Positions 2,119-12,105 of a stretch of 37,380 nucleotides of DNA are shown here, piece by piece. The notes under the pieces are model-generated. The model did not search any database, was not told where the DNA came from, and worked only from the letters and a program-made list of their open reading frames with translations. The stretch spans positions 1 to 37,380 of IMG/VR virus record IMGVR_UViG_3300025085_000077. The stretch is one strand, 5' to 3'. The stretch's first letter is position 1, and each line of letters starts with the position of its first letter. The DNA is from a virus. The translations under genes were made by a program, and so were the position numbers.

Positions 2119-5100
2119 TTATTTTTTCTTGTTTTTATACATAAGTTCTAATATTTTTTCTACTCTATTTTTTTCGTATTGTAAAGCTCTTATTTCTTTT
2201 TTGCTTAAACCATAATCTAATAAAGTTTTTACTTGTTCTGGTTTATTCTCACCTTTAATAGAATCAAATTGTCTTCTAAGCCTTCTTTCTGCAGTTTCTT
2301 TTTTAGGTTTTGTTTCTTGCTTAACTTCAGGTTTAGGCTCCTCTTTAACGTCTTCGGTCTTAACTTCAGGTTTAGTTTCTGATTTTTGAAGTTCTATTAT
2401 TTTTTCAACTCTTGCTTGTTCTTTACCTAAAGCTTTTATTTCTTTTTTAGTAAGTCCTAAATCTAGAAGCATATCAACTTGCTCTTGAGTTTTAGTTTCT
2501 TTTTTCATTGTAATAACATCTTCGATTGCTTGCTCTTCAGGAGTTAATACTTTTGCAGCGTCAAAACCACCATAATAACCAAGTCCTACATCCCATGTTG
2601 ACCAACCTAATCCTAATGCAACTTTTTGCCAGAGAGAAGATTGTTCACTTACGATGCCACGCATGCTGTTTAGCTTTTTCATAACTCTATCAAGAGGTAT
2701 GTTAGTAAGCCCAGTTACTATTTGAGCACCTGCTAAATAAGCTGGATTATCTAAGCTAAATCCTTTATCCTTTATGTCTTTCATATTCCAGCTAAAGCTT
2801 CTAAGCCCACTATTTATTTTTTGTATCTTAGAGCCAAGCGGTGGTGAGAATCCTAATAAATCAAATACAGCTTCTTCATATTTAGATCGGTCTGCCGCAT
2901 GCTGCTTACCTAGCTCCATCAAAGCGCTCTTTAATGCAACTACTGCAGCACCACCAATACCTAATCCTTTAAGTTGTGAATCAATCATACCGTTTGCTAT
3001 TCTTGAAATCTTTTCACTTTTCTTAGCATCCATTTCTTCTTCATCATCTTCTCCAAAGCCTAACGCGAATACAGCTTGTTGCAATGCATTGAATATTAAA
3101 TTTTGTATAGCACCATAATAAACAATTTTAGATACGTTTGTTTTCCAATCTCCTCTGCCGTTTATAAGGTCTTGAGCTGATCTTTTTTGAATACGAGCAT
3201 ACTGCATAGGTGTGTTTGCCCAAGCTAATATTACACGACCAGCACCTGATGCTTGCTGTGCGCTAATCCTGTTTGGATTACTTGATTGTTGACTTTCTTC
3301 TGCTATTTGTCTAAAGTCTTCAAATGCTTGCTTTTCTGCAGCTTTTTGATCCATACCTTTAGCAACTAAAGCTTTTATCCTATTTCTATAAAATGTAGCT
3401 CCTCCTGTTGCGATAGCAAAACTATCTGCAAATCTAGTCATAACAAAACCTTTACTTAATAAAAGCGCTATAGCGGACTTTACTTTGTTTTTAGAATCTC
3501 TTACAGCATCTGCTATTTCAGATTCACTTACATTTATTTTAAGTCCATTTCTACGTTCAACTAAGTAATCAGAATTCATAAGTGCCATAAAGTCACTCCA
3601 GAATTGTTTTTGATTTGCAAATGCTAAACCAGCTTTAACAATATTATTATCACCCCAGTTTATAAAGTTTACCGATGATATAGTTTGAAGCAATGCCGAC
3701 CTCGTGTTTAAAAACATTACAGCACCTACAGAATTGTTTAACCAATCCAATAGTCCATCAGTAACTCTGTTACCACCTGGCGGTCTGTTGCTACCAGATT
3801 TCATTCTACGTAAAGAATCTTCCATAGCTTCACGCCACCTAGTTCCGTATGCAGCCTCCATTTTGTTCATGTTAGCTTCTGAAAATATAATGTCTACGTT
3901 TTCTCTCCACTCTTGTTGGTACTCTGCTCTGTTTACTTTATTGATGCCATTTATAATATCACTAGTTATATTGCCCCCGAGCCAATTAGTTCCGGGTTTA
4001 GGATAAGGTTTGCCTTTTTGTATAACTATTAATTCATTTGTAAAAGTGTTTAGCTCGTCGTTGTTTTTTACAAAATCATTTAGTTCTTTTATATCTTTTT
4101 TAGATAGCCCTGGAATTGACATACCTTGCTTGGTCCACGCAGCAACTCGAACAGCATGTGAAAAAGTAAACCCTGCAATACCCGTTGGCTTGCTTAAGCT
4201 TTTCGGTAATGTTTTTAATTGGTTTTTTAATTCTTTAAAATCATTAGCCGCAGCTATTTTAGCCTGTGTTACAGCTGACTCAGCTTTATCATAAGGATCA
4301 AGTAAGTTTGTTTTAAGAAACGCCATTTGAGCATCACCTCTTTTACCTTTGCCTAGCATCTTATATAATAATCCTGTAAAATCTTCTGCCGACGCTGGAA
4401 TAAAGAAATTAAACTTACCTTTGTTGGCGCCAACTGTTTTAGCCCTTGCCGCAGAATATTGCTTGTAAGTTTCAATTCCTGAAGAATCTTCAATCATATC
4501 ATTTACAATAGTATCAAAAGTTTTAGTTTTGCTAAACTTAGCTATTTGAACTTTCGACTTAACATCTACTTGACTTAAAACATCTTCAACAGCTTTAACG
4601 TTTTTAACTGCATCATCTGCAAAATAAAAATCATTGTACCCTTCTGCCGCTTTACCCATCATCCATCCAGCTTTAGCTTGAGGTGTGCCGTCACTTAATC
4701 CTGTTATATTTTTTAAAGGTATATCTATACCGTTTGCTTTCATAAAAGCTTTTATAGGTCCTGCTGCTTCTTGAGGTCTTGCTGTAAGTATAAAAACATC
4801 TTCAGTGCCTCTTGCATCTGCTATTTTTTGGGCTACGCTAAACAACGGCCCTTTTTTGCCTTTAACAACTTTACTAAATTCAGTAAAATCAAACTTAGCA
4901 CCATTAGCTTCTAAATCAGCAGCTTGCTTTGCAAATTGTGTTGCATTTATTTTTTTGCTAGAACCGTTAGGCATGTTAACGATAACCATGCTTTTAGATG
5001 TTGCTAAAGTATCATCAAAATCAAATACTCTTATTTTTTTAATGCGAGGATTTAATCTCCTTGCTTTGTCTAAAGCTTCGTCTGTTTTAGCTAAAGCATT

Positions 5101-8100
5101 TATTAATGTTTGCGTAGTTACAGGTTTGTCATATGCTATAGCATCTGGCACTAAATCACTATCTAAATCATTTGCCTTTGCTCTAGAAGATTTTGAATAT
5201 GAATCAACCTTGACTCCGGTAGAAGTTATATTGTGAACGTCATAAACAGATTTACCACCAGCTAATATTAAATCACTAGGATTTATACCTCCAGCATTTA
5301 ACCCTACATTTATATTAAAATACCTTGCCCAAATGTTATCGGACATATTCCAGTTTTCTGGCGTTTGTTCTACATAGTTAAAAGCTTCTCCATTTAGTTT
5401 TGTACCTTTAAGTTTATTGTCATTAGAAACTGACAATGGTCCTTGAAAATAATTTTTCTTAACATTTTTAAAAGAATCTTTTACGGTACCATCTAATGCT
5501 TTTTTAAATAAATACTTTCCAACAATAGTAGCGGGTAAAGTATGCTCTAACCTGTTTCCGCTAGAACCGGTTTCCATGTATCCCTTTTGATAAAACCTAA
5601 AAGGCGCAGCCGATCTAAGAAAATGCCCTTGTCCATAAGAACTAGAAGAAAGCAATGCTCCAACAAACAAAATACCTTCGTAGTTTACATCACCATTAGC
5701 ATCTTTCATTATATCATTTTGAAACATTTCAAAAAGTTTGCCTAATTGATCAATAGAATCATCTTGTCTTTTTATAAAAGCAGGGTCATTTAAGTTATTT
5801 TCTAAATTGCCTTTTGCAGAGTATACACCTTCATAAGTAAGCATGCTTTTCATTGCTGGAAAATCACTATCTTTAGGAAAAATATCTTTTCCATTTTCAC
5901 TTCTAGTTTTAGCAATCCATTCGTTAGCTTCTATAACATTTTTAAAAGGTAAATTTCCTGTGTATTCTCTTAAATCACCTAAATTACCATCTGCAGAAAC
6001 AATAGTTGACACTTCAATTCCTTCTTCTTTAAACTCTTTAAGTTGAGCTTTAGTAAAAGCATTTTCACTTGTAAAAGCAAGTTTTCTCCAAAACATAGGA
6101 GGAAGCTTTTTTGTCAATCCGCTGCTAATTGCAAAATCTAAAAATCTTTTTCTGCCCGCATCTGTCTTCATGTCGATACGTTTTATTGGCTTTCCTTCTG
6201 AGTCTTTTACTCCTTCTAAAAGCTTATTAAGAGTTTTAGTATAATCATAATTATAATCTCTAAAATCGGGAGCAAAATCAACATCTTCGTCTAATCCTAG
6301 TTTTTGAAAAGTATTTTCTACTGTTTTACTAAACTTGGCATTTTGTGAAACTTGTAATTTTTCTGCGGTTTTAGCTCGAACATCTTGTGGCTTAGCTTTA
6401 AAAGCTTCTGTACTTGGAGCTGCTTCTGCTATAAACTTATTTGCAATTGCTTTTGCTATAGCTCTCTTTCTATTACTATTATTTTGCGGTGTGCTGCCAA
6501 AGAAATTATTTACTACAGCTGCTACTTTAGGCGTTAATCTATTATAAAGATTAGCTCCAGCTTTTTGCTGTGTAGTTGTAAGATATGGCACACGACCCTG
6601 CATCATAAACTTCTCTATATCCTTTTGCTTTGTTAATCTTCTATTAACTTCTGTAAAAAGCCGAGGTTGTCCCTTTTTAACTCTACCATCGTCAATTGCA
6701 ATTAGCTCAGTTATATTTAATCCTTTATAAAAAGTAGGATTTTCATTTAAAAATTCTCTAAACTTTTTTGGGCTACCTATTATGTCTTTAGCTATTAAAT
6801 CTACGAAAGCTTTGCTTGGTTTAAAAGCTTGCTTTCTGAACTTTTCACTTTTAGGATCTAATCCTTCTAATTGTTTAGTTACAAAACCTCTTACTTTATC
6901 TTTAAACTCAACGCTTAATGGTTGTTTGTTGATTTTAATATTATCAACAAGCTTTACATCTGTATCTATTTCTGTAGCTGTAGCTTTAGAAGTGTCCTGT
7001 ATATTTTCTAGTTCTTTTTGTTTATCGTTTGATATACTTTGTGTAGATTGCTGCTTAGCATAATCTTCTACTAGCTTAGGACCAACTCTTCTTCCTAAAA
7101 TATTACCTATGTAAGTACTAAGCTTTTGGGGTTGGCCTGTTGCTTTGTTAATAGGAGTATAATTTTTCATTATACTTGGAAACTGGTTTAATACATCGCT
7201 TTCTATACTTTTAAAAGTATCTGGGTTACTTAACAAGTTGTTAATTGGTACGTTTCTTTTACCGCTCCATTGTTTTAATGCATCAATACCTAGCTTAGTA
7301 TATTGCTCTTTTAAATTTTGAGTTTCATTAGCGGACAAACTATTTGGATCTGTTTTGTACTTACCTGCTAAATTATCTACATTAGTTGTTTTGGATTCTT
7401 GCGCTTCGTTTGTTGTGATACCTTCACTCTGTGCACTGAGAGCTTCAGCCCTTGCGCTTTGTGTTCCTTGTTGTATGTTTTTTTGATAATCTTTTATAAA
7501 TTCATAAACATCTCTTCCAGTTCTAAATTCTAATTTACCGTATCCTTTAGCTCTAAAAATATCCAATATAGGCTTAGCCAGCATCATAAAAGTTTCGGTA
7601 AGATTGTCAGCCCATGTTAATTCACCTTTTCCAATAGCGTCTGAAAAAGCAGTTAGATATTCCTCAGCTTGCTTTAAAGGGCTAGCGTCAGCATAGTTTT
7701 CATCAATACGTTTTTGAACTATAGCAAGTTCTCTAGGCTTTAATATTTTTTTAAACTGCTCGACTAGTTTTAAAGCATTTTCAGGATTTGCAAATGTAGA
7801 TCTTAGTATTTGGTGTAATCTTTCGTGAGAGGCTGCTGTTATAGCCCCTACCTCAGCTGCTCTTTGTTTGTTTATATATATTTTACCGTCTTTTGCAATA
7901 AAAGCATCTGCGTCTGCATCTGCTCCTGTTGCTTCTACAAACTCTTTAGTTGTATCATAGCTAAATACACTTCCTTCTGGTGCAAATTGCTCTATTGTTT
8001 CAATTTCACCTTCTATTTTTTGTGTTCTTGAAGCAATTACTAAATCAGATAATGTTGTATTTATTTCATCTAATCTAATAGTCTCTGCTTTTGTTAAGCT

Positions 8101-10320
8101 AGGATTGTCAACTTCTTTAATTTTATTTTTTAATGTTTTTTGTTCAATCATTAAATCTATAAAAGATGATTGATTTTCTTGGCTTACATCTATACGGCTT
8201 AATGCTGTAGAAGAGTTTTGAACATCTCTAGCTCTTTGTTTAATATTATTACCCTGAGCTTCTGTTATAGTTCCTGCTTCTACTTGTTTGTTAATACGAC
8301 TATCTATAACCTGTAAAGAATTTTTTACATTTAATATATCTATTTCACCTTCAGTTGTTAGTGTTTCAGTATTAAATGCTTCGTTTAAATTATTTAAACC
8401 GTATTTTAATAAAACGTTATCAACTTTTCTATTTGCAATTCCATTTTTAACATAATTATTTGCCTGTATAATATTAGTTGGAGAAGAATATAAACCACCA
8501 CCACTCATTCCTAATATAAAAGCATCGGGAACTCCTTGCATAGGGTCTAATCCTTTAAGCAGGTTTTGTGTTATTTGTGTTGCAACTTCTTCAATACCTT
8601 CTCCTACAATACCCGCAGCAGCTCCATATTTTCTTAAAGCAGTTTCGTACATTTCTATAATGCCTTTCCTAAATATTTTAGCCCCTTCTTCTTTACCTTC
8701 TCTTGCGATTATTGTTCTATAACTTTTACCAATAGTTCCTTTACCTATAAGCCCAAACACAGTTTCAGCGCCTGCGACACCTAAAGAAGTAGTCATTATT
8801 TGAAACTCGCTCATAGCAGGATGTTCATCCCTCATTTCTCTTATTTCTTTCCCTGCAAATCCTATAGTACCTGCAGCTAAAAATTGCCCAGTTTTCATAT
8901 AAGCACCACCTACCATCATGGACATAGAAACAGGCATGCTATTAAAAAGCCCTAGTCCAATCTGTTGAAATCCATCCATATAATTCCCAGCGCTAAAGCT
9001 GTCAGATATGCCTTGATTTTCAAAATTTTGCAAACCAAACTCTTGATTTATCAAACCTAGTTTTTCTTGCTCTTCTATGTAATAGTCTAGTATATAATTT
9101 TTAATTCCAAACTCTTCCTTAAACTCTTCAGAATTAACGCCTATATCCCATCCAGTAGCGTCAGCTAACGCGTTTTGTGGCATTGCTGCAATATCGTATA
9201 ATGTTTCAGGTATACTTGCCATATGCTGACCTAAAGTAGTACTTCCTTCTCTTAAGTTATTAAACAAAGCTCCTAGATAGCTCATTTGACTTGCTATTTT
9301 TTTTGCTTCGTCTTTATCTGCTGTATTATAAGCTGGGTTCATACCTAGTTCATACTGAGCATCGTCTGCTAATTTTTTTCTTATAGCAAGCAATTTTTTA
9401 AAATATTCTTTTCCTTCTTTAGTCTTAATATTTAAAGACTTCTCTTCTTTATATGTTGGAGGGTTATTTAAAAAAATAGAAGGTTCTTCAACTATTTCGG
9501 TTACTGTAAATCCAGCTATAATTTCATCAATTTCACTTATTTTTGTGAAAACATCTTTTAAAGACATATTACCAGTAGAATCAGACATACCTTCTATACT
9601 CTTTATATAAGAGAATTTATATGAATCACTTTTAGTGTCTTTAAACTCGTCAAACTTAGGCAGACTGTTAATTGTTCTTTTTTCTTTTTTTTGCCCTGAC
9701 AATTGCTTATCGTATAGCTTTAAAGATTTTGATTGTTTTTCATCTAAATGATCAAATACCTGCGCAACTTTAGCTATTGCATAATTTCCTGTTTGTAATT
9801 TATAGTCTTCTGAATCTGCGGGTTTAGCATAGTAATCAATTGAGCCTGTTTCTTTATTTATTTCATATTTGTAATCGTACTTACCTCTAGGATTGTAAGT
9901 TTCACCTACATCTGCTTTTGTTTTGTAAGATTCAGGTAAACTAAATACAGGTTCTAATCCTACTTTTTGAAAAAATGTTCTATTTTGAAAATCTTTTATA
10001 TCAAAATCGCTTTCTACAGAGTCTAATAAAGGATTGTCTTCACTCGTACCTGGTGTAGCGTTTAACCTTTGCGACAGAGTCGAGTTTTCTAAGGAATCGA
10101 ATATTCCATCCCCAGATATTGATTTCATAAACTCTTCGTTGGACACCGGTTCCGTTTTCCCTGGTGTAGTTGCATCCGTCTCTACAACAGGGTCTATCTT
10201 TACTTCTTCAACAACGTCTTCTGCTGGTTCATTTTTTTTCTTCCAGTCTTTAGTTAAAGCAATTTTTTCTTCTAAAGATATATCAGAGCCTAATGATTGT
10301 ACGTATTCTAATAAGTTCAT
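2119..10320 (-). CDS. Giant 2733-residue multidomain protein, probable internal/ejected virion protein
   Basis: The largest gene, about a fifth of the window. Seen in sequence: an acidic, variable N-terminus (about 1-130); hydrophobic, glycine-rich segments at about 445-530 and 566-588; a zincin motif ASHERLHQIL with H832, E833 and H836, and a candidate third ligand in EEYLTAF (E886/E887); lysine-rich helical stretches; a HAD phosphatase-like domain with FDFDDT (nucleophile-type D1767 and D1769), ILTARP at about 1842-1849 and FADDAVKNV at about 1898; a conserved C-terminal region with hydrophobic segments between about 2197 and 2425; and a duplicated 32-residue motif at 2613-2644 and 2695-2726. 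Giant multidomain phage proteins ('polyvalent' proteins) and the T7 gp16 and N4 gp50 virion proteins are delivered with the DNA. Its place at the end of the structural operon after ejection-protein candidates suggests a similar fate, but that is inference. No RNA polymerase DFDGD motif was seen. Confidence 0.85.
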   Translation of the reverse strand: MNLLEYVQSLGSDISLEEKIALTKDWKKKNEPAEDVVEEVKIDPVVETDATTPGKTEPVSNEEFMKSISGDGIFDSLENSTLSQRLNATPGTSEDNPLLDSVESDFDIKDFQNRTFFQKVGLEPVFSLPESYKTKADVGETYNPRGKYDYKYEINKETGSIDYYAKPADSEDYKLQTGNYAIAKVAQVFDHLDEKQSKSLKLYDKQLSGQKKEKRTINSLPKFDEFKDTKSDSYKFSYIKSIEGMSDSTGNMSLKDVFTKISEIDEIIAGFTVTEIVEEPSIFLNNPPTYKEEKSLNIKTKEGKEYFKKLLAIRKKLADDAQYELGMNPAYNTADKDEAKKIASQMSYLGALFNNLREGSTTLGQHMASIPETLYDIAAMPQNALADATGWDIGVNSEEFKEEFGIKNYILDYYIEEQEKLGLINQEFGLQNFENQGISDSFSAGNYMDGFQQIGLGLFNSMPVSMSMMVGGAYMKTGQFLAAGTIGFAGKEIREMRDEHPAMSEFQIMTTSLGVAGAETVFGLIGKGTIGKSYRTIIAREGKEEGAKIFRKGIIEMYETALRKYGAAAGIVGEGIEEVATQITQNLLKGLDPMQGVPDAFILGMSGGGLYSSPTNIIQANNYVKNGIANRKVDNVLLKYGLNNLNEAFNTETLTTEGEIDILNVKNSLQVIDSRINKQVEAGTITEAQGNNIKQRARDVQNSSTALSRIDVSQENQSSFIDLMIEQKTLKNKIKEVDNPSLTKAETIRLDEINTTLSDLVIASRTQKIEGEIETIEQFAPEGSVFSYDTTKEFVEATGADADADAFIAKDGKIYINKQRAAEVGAITAASHERLHQILRSTFANPENALKLVEQFKKILKPRELAIVQKRIDENYADASPLKQAEEYLTAFSDAIGKGELTWADNLTETFMMLAKPILDIFRAKGYGKLEFRTGRDVYEFIKDYQKNIQQGTQSARAEALSAQSEGITTNEAQESKTTNVDNLAGKYKTDPNSLSANETQNLKEQYTKLGIDALKQWSGKRNVPINNLLSNPDTFKSIESDVLNQFPSIMKNYTPINKATGQPQKLSTYIGNILGRRVGPKLVEDYAKQQSTQSISNDKQKELENIQDTSKATATEIDTDVKLVDNIKINKQPLSVEFKDKVRGFVTKQLEGLDPKSEKFRKQAFKPSKAFVDLIAKDIIGSPKKFREFLNENPTFYKGLNITELIAIDDGRVKKGQPRLFTEVNRRLTKQKDIEKFMMQGRVPYLTTTQQKAGANLYNRLTPKVAAVVNNFFGSTPQNNSNRKRAIAKAIANKFIAEAAPSTEAFKAKPQDVRAKTAEKLQVSQNAKFSKTVENTFQKLGLDEDVDFAPDFRDYNYDYTKTLNKLLEGVKDSEGKPIKRIDMKTDAGRKRFLDFAISSGLTKKLPPMFWRKLAFTSENAFTKAQLKEFKEEGIEVSTIVSADGNLGDLREYTGNLPFKNVIEANEWIAKTRSENGKDIFPKDSDFPAMKSMLTYEGVYSAKGNLENNLNDPAFIKRQDDSIDQLGKLFEMFQNDIMKDANGDVNYEGILFVGALLSSSSYGQGHFLRSAAPFRFYQKGYMETGSSGNRLEHTLPATIVGKYLFKKALDGTVKDSFKNVKKNYFQGPLSVSNDNKLKGTKLNGEAFNYVEQTPENWNMSDNIWARYFNINVGLNAGGINPSDLILAGGKSVYDVHNITSTGVKVDSYSKSSRAKANDLDSDLVPDAIAYDKPVTTQTLINALAKTDEALDKARRLNPRIKKIRVFDFDDTLATSKSMVIVNMPNGSSKKINATQFAKQAADLEANGAKFDFTEFSKVVKGKKGPLFSVAQKIADARGTEDVFILTARPQEAAGPIKAFMKANGIDIPLKNITGLSDGTPQAKAGWMMGKAAEGYNDFYFADDAVKNVKAVEDVLSQVDVKSKVQIAKFSKTKTFDTIVNDMIEDSSGIETYKQYSAARAKTVGANKGKFNFFIPASAEDFTGLLYKMLGKGKRGDAQMAFLKTNLLDPYDKAESAVTQAKIAAANDFKELKNQLKTLPKSLSKPTGIAGFTFSHAVRVAAWTKQGMSIPGLSKKDIKELNDFVKNNDELNTFTNELIVIQKGKPYPKPGTNWLGGNITSDIINGINKVNRAEYQQEWRENVDIIFSEANMNKMEAAYGTRWREAMEDSLRRMKSGSNRPPGGNRVTDGLLDWLNNSVGAVMFLNTRSALLQTISSVNFINWGDNNIVKAGLAFANQKQFWSDFMALMNSDYLVERRNGLKINVSESEIADAVRDSKNKVKSAIALLLSKGFVMTRFADSFAIATGGATFYRNRIKALVAKGMDQKAAEKQAFEDFRQIAEESQQSSNPNRISAQQASGAGRVILAWANTPMQYARIQKRSAQDLINGRGDWKTNVSKIVYYGAIQNLIFNALQQAVFALGFGEDDEEEMDAKKSEKISRIANGMIDSQLKGLGIGGAAVVALKSALMELGKQHAADRSKYEEAVFDLLGFSPPLGSKIQKINSGLRSFSWNMKDIKDKGFSLDNPAYLAGAQIVTGLTNIPLDRVMKKLNSMRGIVSEQSSLWQKVALGLGWSTWDVGLGYYGGFDAAKVLTPEEQAIEDVITMKKETKTQEQVDMLLDLGLTKKEIKALGKEQARVEKIIELQKSETKPEVKTEDVKEEPKPEVKQETKPKKETAERRLRRQFDSIKGENKPEQVKTLLDYGLSKKEIRALQYEKNRVEKILELMYKNKKK
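2143..2238 (-). repeat. C-terminal duplicated motif, copy 2 (residues 2695-2726)
   Basis: Second copy of a 32-residue motif in the giant protein. Its core is LLDYGLSKKEIRAL followed by RVEKILEL. By direct alignment it matches copy 1 at 22 of 32 positions with no gaps. It ends seven residues before the protein's C-terminus and is separated from copy 1 by a proline/lysine/glutamate linker. Confidence 0.85.
2389..2484 (-). repeat. C-terminal duplicated motif, copy 1 (residues 2613-2644)
   Basis: First copy of the 32-residue motif, with core LLDLGLTKKEIKAL followed by RVEKIIEL. The predicted form is a helix-turn-helix pair. A lysine, glutamate and proline-rich linker of about 50 residues follows it. 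Confidence 0.85.
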
Positions 10321-10325
10321 TTAAT

Positions 10326-11426
10326 TTAATTTAAGTTGTTATCATCTAAGAATTTTTGAGCTTCTGCTTTTTTAGCTTCTGATAAATCAAAAACTGCAGC
10401 ATCTTCTTTTACTGAAGGTATTTGGTTTTTAGTAAATTCATTTAGATAATTATTCATAAAGTATTCTTTATATTTTATTCCAAAAATTTCTTTTTTGTCT
10501 TGAGATAAAGGTAAATCTATTTCGTATAACCAGCTGGAACCTGCTGCATTAGCATTCTGAGCCATTTGAGCATCCTCACTGACACTTGTATCTTTAGATA
10601 TATAAACGTTCCATGCGGCTACTACATCTTGCTCAGAGCTCATTAAACCAGCAACCTCAGCGTTTATAAAAGGCGTTACTTTCTTTTCGATCTTATCCAT
10701 GTCAAACTTAAGTATGTTTCTTCCTTTGCCATTTCCTAAATCAATAACTTCGTAATCAAAACTGCCATCTGCATTTTTCATTACAAATTCTTCGCTTATT
10801 TTAGCATTACCTTTTAGTTCTTTATTTTCATTAATCATTTCTTGCATAAACAATCCAGTTTCTGGCAAAAGCTTTAGCATGTCTTTCCCTATATCCGGTG
10901 TTGGCGCTACTAATGATGTATCTGAATCAATCAATGCTTTTAATGAAGCACTGTTTATAATTAAAGGTGATGCAAAAGCAGGTCCCATAAATGTTATTTG
11001 TTGGGTACCATTAGCCATTAAATCCAAATATGCGCTATAACCATCAGATAAAGAAAAGCCAGGTTTACCAGTCATTAGACTATTAGCTGCAGTATATGCA
11101 TAATTATTGTTAGGATCAAAATTTGATTGCTCGGTTACGCTTAGTTCAGATATAAGAGAAGCTAAAAAATCTAACGAAGCTTGAGGTGCTTCTTGCAAAT
11201 ATTTTAATTGTGCTAATTCAACTTTGCAATCTTCAGACATGCACGCATTTGATTCTATTGCTATTTTTAATTTAGCATAGTGAATACCTGCTCCTCTGTA
11301 TGCGTTGTCAAGCAATTGAAAATTATAATCGCTAGGGTTAGATACAAAGTCTTTATTATAAGCAATAGCATTACTTTGATTAAATTGCCTTAAATATAGA
11401 TTTTTTAATAAATTTTCGTTTTCCAT
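10326..11426 (-). CDS. Probable virion protein, function unknown
   Basis: A 366-residue protein without recognisable enzymatic motifs, signal peptide or membrane segment. It begins MENENLLKNLYLRQFNQSNA. Two cysteines, in ACMSEDCKVE at about residues 61-67, might form a disulfide or be incidental. The middle is rich in serine, alanine and leucine, and the last 30 residues are acidic and helical (EAKKAEAQKFLDDNN). It starts 13 bases after the stop of the ejection-protein candidate and ends 5 bases before the giant gene. Podoviruses commonly encode two or three ejection proteins in this order, so an internal virion role is the best guess, resting on position only. Confidence 0.75.
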   Translation of the reverse strand: MENENLLKNLYLRQFNQSNAIAYNKDFVSNPSDYNFQLLDNAYRGAGIHYAKLKIAIESNACMSEDCKVELAQLKYLQEAPQASLDFLASLISELSVTEQSNFDPNNNYAYTAANSLMTGKPGFSLSDGYSAYLDLMANGTQQITFMGPAFASPLIINSASLKALIDSDTSLVAPTPDIGKDMLKLLPETGLFMQEMINENKELKGNAKISEEFVMKNADGSFDYEVIDLGNGKGRNILKFDMDKIEKKVTPFINAEVAGLMSSEQDVVAAWNVYISKDTSVSEDAQMAQNANAAGSSWLYEIDLPLSQDKKEIFGIKYKEYFMNNYLNEFTKNQIPSVKEDAAVFDLSEAKKAEAQKFLDDNNLN

Positions 11427-11439
11427 TATTTTTTTATTA

Positions 11440-12105
11440 CTATGATTGAGCCGCCATATATCCTCCGGCTATTTGTCCTAAGCTTCCAAAAGCTCCAGTA
11501 ATTGCACCTGTTTTATCTGACGCTGCTTGCGCTTCAGCTTGTCTAGCTTGGCCTAACATTGCAGCTGTTCTATCTAATTGTTGTAATTCTCTACCTTCTC
11601 TAGTACTAAACATAAATTGCTCGCCTGCAACATCTGCTTGCTGCACTCTCTGTGCTTCTGCCATTTTTTGTTGTTGCATAGCTTGCTCGCCTGCTGCCAT
11701 TTTGTCCTGGTTAGATTTTTCTTGAGATTCAATACTAGCTGCAACTCCTTTTTTAGATCTTAATGCTGCTTGAGCCAACGCTGTAGCCCCTCCAGCACTT
11801 GCCCCAGTAGCTCTCATAGTGTCTAAAGTATTTGCTAAGGATATGTCTGCTTCTTCTATTTGCATTTCAGCAGCTCCAGTGGCTACAGATAAATTAGCGA
11901 AAGGGTTACTTATCATGCTACTAAGATCTGTAATGCCTGCATAAGGATTAATTATCTCTTGTCTATTATTTTCTAGCTCTTCTAGCTTTCCTTGTAGTTT
12001 AAGCCTTTCTTTTCTAGCAGCCCTTCTTTTTTTGTCAGCAGCGCTAGCCCCGAAAATTCCTCCAGCTATACTTGCTACACCGCCTATTATTGCAGTTGTT
12101 AACAT
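11440..12105 (-). CDS. Ejection (internal virion) protein candidate, T7 gp14/P22 gp7 type
   Basis: A 221-residue, alanine- and glutamine-rich protein. The N-terminus, MLTTAIIGGVASIAGGIFGA, is a glycine-rich hydrophobic helix followed at once by a basic stretch (KKRRAARKERLK). The middle is a long predicted coiled coil rich in alanine, glutamine and glutamate, and the C-terminus returns to a small-residue hydrophobic segment (ITGAFGSLGQIAGGYMAAQS). This plan resembles internal core proteins that podoviruses inject to form the DNA channel (T7 gp14, P22 gp7). The resemblance is architectural, not a sequence match I can prove. An A-rich leader (AAAAATAAAAACATATG) supports the start. Confidence 0.7.
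   Translation of the reverse strand: MLTTAIIGGVASIAGGIFGASAADKKRRAARKERLKLQGKLEELENNRQEIINPYAGITDLSSMISNPFANLSVATGAAEMQIEEADISLANTLDTMRATGASAGGATALAQAALRSKKGVAASIESQEKSNQDKMAAGEQAMQQQKMAEAQRVQQADVAGEQFMFSTREGRELQQLDRTAAMLGQARQAEAQAASDKTGAITGAFGSLGQIAGGYMAAQS

Follow-up and report, generated by a model that had tools for sequence, protein, structure and literature searches.

A giant protein of uncultured phages with a predicted zinc metallopeptidase and a HAD phosphatase: a candidate ejected polyvalent protein

The giant gene and its neighbours

The window, the whole stretch of DNA analysed here, is a 37,380-base IMG/VR record of a marine bacterial virus, in which all of the long late genes are on the minus strand. 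Positions 2119..10320 of the same strand hold one intact frame with an ATG start and no internal stops, and the preliminary description was right in reading it as the gene of a single giant protein of 2733 residues. The motifs HERLH, DFDDT, TARP and FADD start at residues 832, 1767, 1846 and 1900. A Pfam search with the giant protein found no family above its cut-off, and PADLOC gave no matches. The N-terminal region (residues 1-780; 7981..10320, minus strand) is variable, with a mean column identity of 11% among relatives, and has no Pfam family. A 97-nt repeat is present at the C terminus in two copies (2143..2485, minus strand), which are 71% identical and start 246 nt apart. The protein had also been described as carrying hydrophobic, membrane-like regions. 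This is weakly true of hydrophobicity but not of membrane segments, since the best 19-residue Kyte-Doolittle window (residues 2450-2471) reaches about 1.44, which is below the usual cut of 1.6 for a transmembrane helix.

The relatives of the TerL, portal and MCP of the window are found in Elemovirus, Maribacter phage Panino, the uncultured podovirus MW202828 and Cellulophaga phages (Pervagoviridae, Pachyviridae). Tenacibaculum phage Gundel_1 has a related TerL and portal, and also gives a weak C-terminal signal to the giant protein. None of the 87 TerL and portal matches belongs to Crassvirales, all of them falling into other groups, and the NCBI taxonomy does not place Pervagoviridae and the other closest isolates in Crassvirales. 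The sequences thus lend no support to the crAss-like structural context that had been suggested for the gene.

In elemovirus, phi40:1, phi19:3, MW202828 and Panino, the structural block closes with one giant gene, whose product has 1691-3859 aa. In phi40:1 the final genes are gp099, gp100 and gp101, and their annotation as structural comes from MS/MS proteomics. The window follows the same arrangement: the 221-aa product of 11440..12105 (minus strand) is homologous to gp099 in a profile-level match (E 2.3e-8), and the 366-aa product of 10326..11426 (minus strand) holds the position of gp100, with no sequence match to it. The earlier statement that the giant gene lies after candidate ejection-protein genes has thus gained a neighbour related to a virion protein detected by MS/MS. 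As the giant gene stands in the position of gp101 and one of its neighbours is homologous to gp099, we infer that the giant protein is probably packaged in the virion and enters the cell together with the DNA, its ejection into the host being suggested by synteny and analogy. No sequence match was found between the giant protein and phi40:1 gp101 or elemovirus gp18. Kinship with the giants of elemovirus, phi40:1, phi19:3, Panino and MW202828 was considered and rejected, as sequence comparison found none.

Distribution among viruses

A full-length search with the giant protein retrieved four loci. Searches with the HAD alignment found at least 549 confirmed relatives in viral contigs, of which 80 were kept, and ten relatives in bacterial or archaeal genome assemblies. 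Full-length and C-terminal tblastn searches of 50,697 isolated-phage records gave no convincing relative of the giant protein. The portal of the window was present in all 50 relative records tested, and the carriers of the giant protein thus form a single uncultured virus clade, seen in hundreds of viral contigs but absent from the phage records that were searched. Its hosts are probably flavobacteria (Flavobacteriia).

When the C-terminal region alone was used as the query, 76 of the 79 loci fetched also matched the HAD-region profile. Because this profile reaches beyond the HAD, and L172, L179 and the truncated L178 match just its post-HAD end, the true number of loci with a HAD is slightly lower than 76 of 79. 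The HAD motifs are missing in L100, L172 and L179, which keep HExxH and the C-terminal region, and the HAD thus behaves as a removable and dispensable cassette. In L114 and L116 (and L065), the C-terminal region has an ORF of its own, some 670 aa long, the giant gene being split or frameshifted there.

Enzyme domains and the segments between them

The HERLH motif (H832/E833/H836; 7813..7827, minus strand) had been proposed as a zincin site, and its residues are kept in relatives. From the composition of the protein, 0.0026 HExxH motifs are expected in it; exactly one is present in 71 of the 82 relatives with lengths of 2300 aa and above, compared with 0.23 expected in total, and in those relatives it lies 832-1246 aa ahead of the HAD aspartate. 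The domain alignment of 62 relatives (residues 780-965; 7426..7983, minus strand) has four invariant columns and no others, namely H832, E833, H836 and E887. The first three were the criterion by which the aligned relatives had been selected, whereas E887 (7660..7662, minus strand) had not been selected for. A longer alignment of 69 sequences gave the same outcome, with E887 again invariant. In the predicted structure, the helix with HExxH comes after strands, and E887 is borne by a helix further on, in agreement with the description of the zincins of polyvalent proteins (PMC5512222). By its HExxH and a downstream Glu as the putative third zinc ligand, the domain is classified from sequence as a zincin metallopeptidase of the gluzincin type. 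Pfam M78 matched 6 of the 62 members (best E 8e-4), and a zincin profile search gave a weak match to snapalysin (E 1.8). PDB Foldseek and VIA, run on a long, helix-dominated model of 1063 aa, returned unspecific helical matches and no zincin. At the same site, L112, L132, L140 and L162 read HEKAGH, HEFIGH, HEITGH and HEMVGH, with one extra residue; HEXXXH variants have already been reported for polyvalent proteins (PMC5512222).

Self-processing by the zincin has been proposed for polyvalent proteins (PMC5512222), and by analogy we consider it more likely that the zincin processes the giant protein itself. Its target might instead be a host protein, which would make it an effector, an option kept open in the same paper. 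The surroundings of the active site are highly diverse (mean column identity of 14-25% over the zincin region), as would be expected for such an enzyme. Against this, almost all members have the domain, its distance from the HAD is similar among them, and the domains of such a protein would have to be released from one another; self-processing is also the commoner proposal, and a host-directed peptidase seems rather doubtful to us.

The HAD domain (residues 1756-1935; 4516..5055, minus strand) had been recognized from FDFDDT, ILTARP and FADDAV. The full motif set is present, and D1767/D1769 of motif I (DFDDT; 5008..5022, minus strand), T1846, K1883 and D1902/D1903 are invariant or nearly so in relatives. 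The preliminary description would have given up both enzyme domains had relatives lacked the metal and HAD residues; both sets are conserved, with few relatives excepted. Residues 16-183 of the predicted model (mean pLDDT 74.9) align with many HADs at Z-scores of up to 9.4, and on the strength of its motifs and Rossmann-like fold the domain is a HAD superfamily phosphatase. Its top structural neighbour in VIA, where middling Z-scores are common, was the phosphatase domain of Pnkp1 (4xru_D; Z 9.4, rmsd 3.2, 126 aligned). T4 Pnk (2ia5; Z 8.6, rmsd 2.7, 110 aligned), Nir2, phosphoserine phosphatase and other HADs followed within 1 Z unit. PDB Foldseek gave no match at E ≤ 0.001, and PHROG 415, a polynucleotide kinase family, matched residues 1756-1935 with an E of 0.0035.

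The spacing between motif I and the acidic pair takes three forms among the loci, of about 133, 179 and 335 residues. A third form of the HAD, with some 46 additional residues in this interval, occurs in L025, L027, L028, L030, L053, L065 and L085. The 335-residue form, found in 13 loci, contains a P-loop kinase inside the HAD, inserted shortly after motif I. In one of these loci, L004, the inserted kinase (residues 1905-2075 of P0005) matches Pfam AAA_33 (E 2e-15) and PHROG 505, polynucleotide kinase (E 1.9e-10). Its best PDB entries are 4gp7/4jst (E 0.002), labelled by the search tool only as 'Metallophosphoesterase'; they are the 5′-kinase domain of Clostridium thermocellum Pnkp. The window protein itself has no 5′-kinase domain and thus lacks the kinase part of a PNKP.

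Since a P-loop domain of the 5′-kinase type is inserted in the HAD of 13 relatives, end healing is the likeliest activity, and the HAD looks like a phosphatase of the polynucleotide end-healing type, not a generic host-modifying enzyme. An ejected polyvalent protein could also carry a HAD that acts on a nucleotide second messenger of host defence or another small phosphate, or on a host phosphoprotein. The structural matches form a continuum that takes in class B/C acid phosphatases, phosphoserine phosphatase, Nir2 and the Lem4/Ceg4 effectors, and injected counter-signalling enzymes have been proposed for polyvalent proteins (PMC7824862). We nevertheless place such substrates on the unlikely side, as the two best polynucleotide matches stand at or near the top of the structural list and the kinase inserted in the 13 relatives is of the polynucleotide-kinase type. 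In favour of end healing, 11 of the 16 large records selected (45-77 kb) encode an ATP-dependent ligase, although such ligases are widespread in phages in any case. The search for an RNA ligase in the same 16 records gave one match, which was below the cut-off and in the same place as the DNA-ligase match of that record.

Between the zincin and the HAD, a segment at residues about 990-1100 (7021..7353, minus strand) weakly resembles region 2 of sigma-70. It was first spotted by eye, and the tests on it were not blind. The profile of residues 980-1745 had a sigma factor as its sole PDB match at E ≤ 1 (E 0.077), and the profile of the segment alone placed CBL-B ahead of sigma factors, none being significant. 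Of 50 members, two matched Pfam Sigma70_r2 (best E 0.0019), which came out best among 14 families. With hhalign, the segment gave 0.004 with flavobacterial ECF sigmas in a plausible register, compared with 0.18 or worse for other parts of the giant protein, and 0.16 with group-1 sigmas; none of 200 column-shuffled decoys scored as high as the segment with the ECF sigmas. We regard this as a possible but unproven lead. A divergent sigma-70 region-2-like domain, released by self-cleavage, could bind the RNA polymerase of the host and so set off early transcription with no need for a polymerase from the virion, besides end healing, but we consider this role unlikely.

A compact domain, predicted with high confidence, follows at residues 1490-1712 (5185..5853, minus strand), in which E1592-H1593 is near-invariant and R1666 invariant among 50 relatives with a mean identity of 19%. 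It had no Pfam or PDB match. Its block pLDDT is about 84-96 over much of its length, and its EHxxP pattern recalls HNH nucleases, which is a resemblance only.

The C-terminal half and a proposed role

The conserved C-terminal region (residues 1936-2640; 2401..4515, minus strand) has a mean column identity of 60% in its core among 25 diverse members, and its predicted model is all helical. Foldseek found no PDB match for this model at E ≤ 0.001, and 60 matches among predicted viral structures at E ≤ 1e-3. Four of the 60 are close homologues (29-41% identity), and many, at about 12% identity, are annotated as 'Large polyvalent protein associated domain', ART-PolyVal or MuF. The matches to annotated polyvalent proteins reach an E of 1e-12 with a TM of about 0.45-0.5 at about 12% identity, and this fold similarity between predicted models places the giant protein in the polyvalent class. 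It also combines disparate domains, including a zincin, and is encoded beside virion genes, as is characteristic of that class. LPD38 (PF18857) had no Pfam match in the window at E ≤ 10, and three LPD38 loci, of which one scored under the cut-off of the family, were not matched by hhalign; a remote kinship with LPD38, as hinted by the fold similarity, may exist.

We propose, with a probability of about one half for the reading as a whole, that the giant protein is a virion-packaged and ejected polyvalent protein of an uncultured clade of tailed phages. Synthesized late, it would enter the head and later leave it with the DNA by way of a channel built from the small virion proteins encoded next to it. 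The helical C-terminal half, judging from the shared fold and the parallel with N4, would serve as the module for packaging and ejection. The zinc peptidase would cut its own polypeptide before or after entry and free its parts, as proposed for the class (PMC5512222). The HAD would be a PNKP-type 3′-phosphatase, an identity supported by the tools used, and would be completed in some relatives by the inserted 5′-kinase. It might heal DNA or RNA ends broken by host nucleases at entry, so that a ligase could seal them.

The preliminary description had pictured an injected multi-enzyme that modifies the host cell. The multi-enzyme part of this picture holds, as a polyvalent protein with a zincin and a HAD is encoded in a block of virion and ejection genes; the host-directed part fares less well, given a HAD of end-healing appearance and a zincin that more likely acts on its own chain. 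The few relatives without a recognisable HExxH or HAD might suggest a purely structural virion protein in which the enzyme domains are relics, but the very few positions that are conserved include the catalytic residues, and we find this reading very improbable. If our proposal is true, repair of the genome or of tRNA starts with an injected protein, not with early gene expression, and a nucleic-acid end-repair enzyme joins the activities that phages appear to bring into the cell ready-made.

Multidomain injected proteins with zincins are already a known kind. The polyvalent proteins described by Iyer et al. (2017, PMC5512222) are, like the giant protein, large and multidomain, are encoded beside virion genes, and share with it a zincin-like HExxH with a Glu helix and the C-terminal fold. 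The words phosphatase, haloacid dehalogenase and PNKP are absent from the main text of that paper, and a HAD of the PNKP type, whether or not a kinase is nested in it, therefore appears to be an added domain type for polyvalent proteins. Homologues of the C-terminal half with 29-41% identity are A0A218MMX7, A0A218ML07 and A0A218MLT5 (uncultured virus) and a protein of Virus NIOZ-UU157, all of them public, uncharacterised metagenomic entries.

Pnkp1 (4xru) and T4 PNK/phosphatase (2ia5) have the same HAD phosphatase fold as the giant protein and, like some of its relatives, a P-loop 5′-kinase in the same chain. Unlike in these two enzymes, the HAD of the giant family is embedded in a giant protein. 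Its kinase is nested in the HAD after motif I, whereas the PNK-HADs in a survey of jumbo phages have an N-terminal kinase (PMC7824862).

Among proteins in the same genomic position, phi40:1 gp101 and Elemovirus gp18 are likewise encoded by the last genes of a syntenic structural block, with sizes of 1691-3694 aa, and are annotated as structural (by MS/MS for phi40:1), but they have no detectable sequence homology to the giant protein. A parallel in layout is the virion RNA polymerase gp50 of N4 (PMC12633501), an ejected giant whose HExxH domain precedes a large alpha-helical domain of unknown kinship at the C terminus, and which has small ejection proteins encoded alongside. The giant protein differs in that no RNA polymerase domain was detected by Pfam in the window or in the N-termini of 50 relatives (a sequence-level comparison; the structural models covered residues beyond 682), and in that a HAD is placed between the zincin and the helical region.
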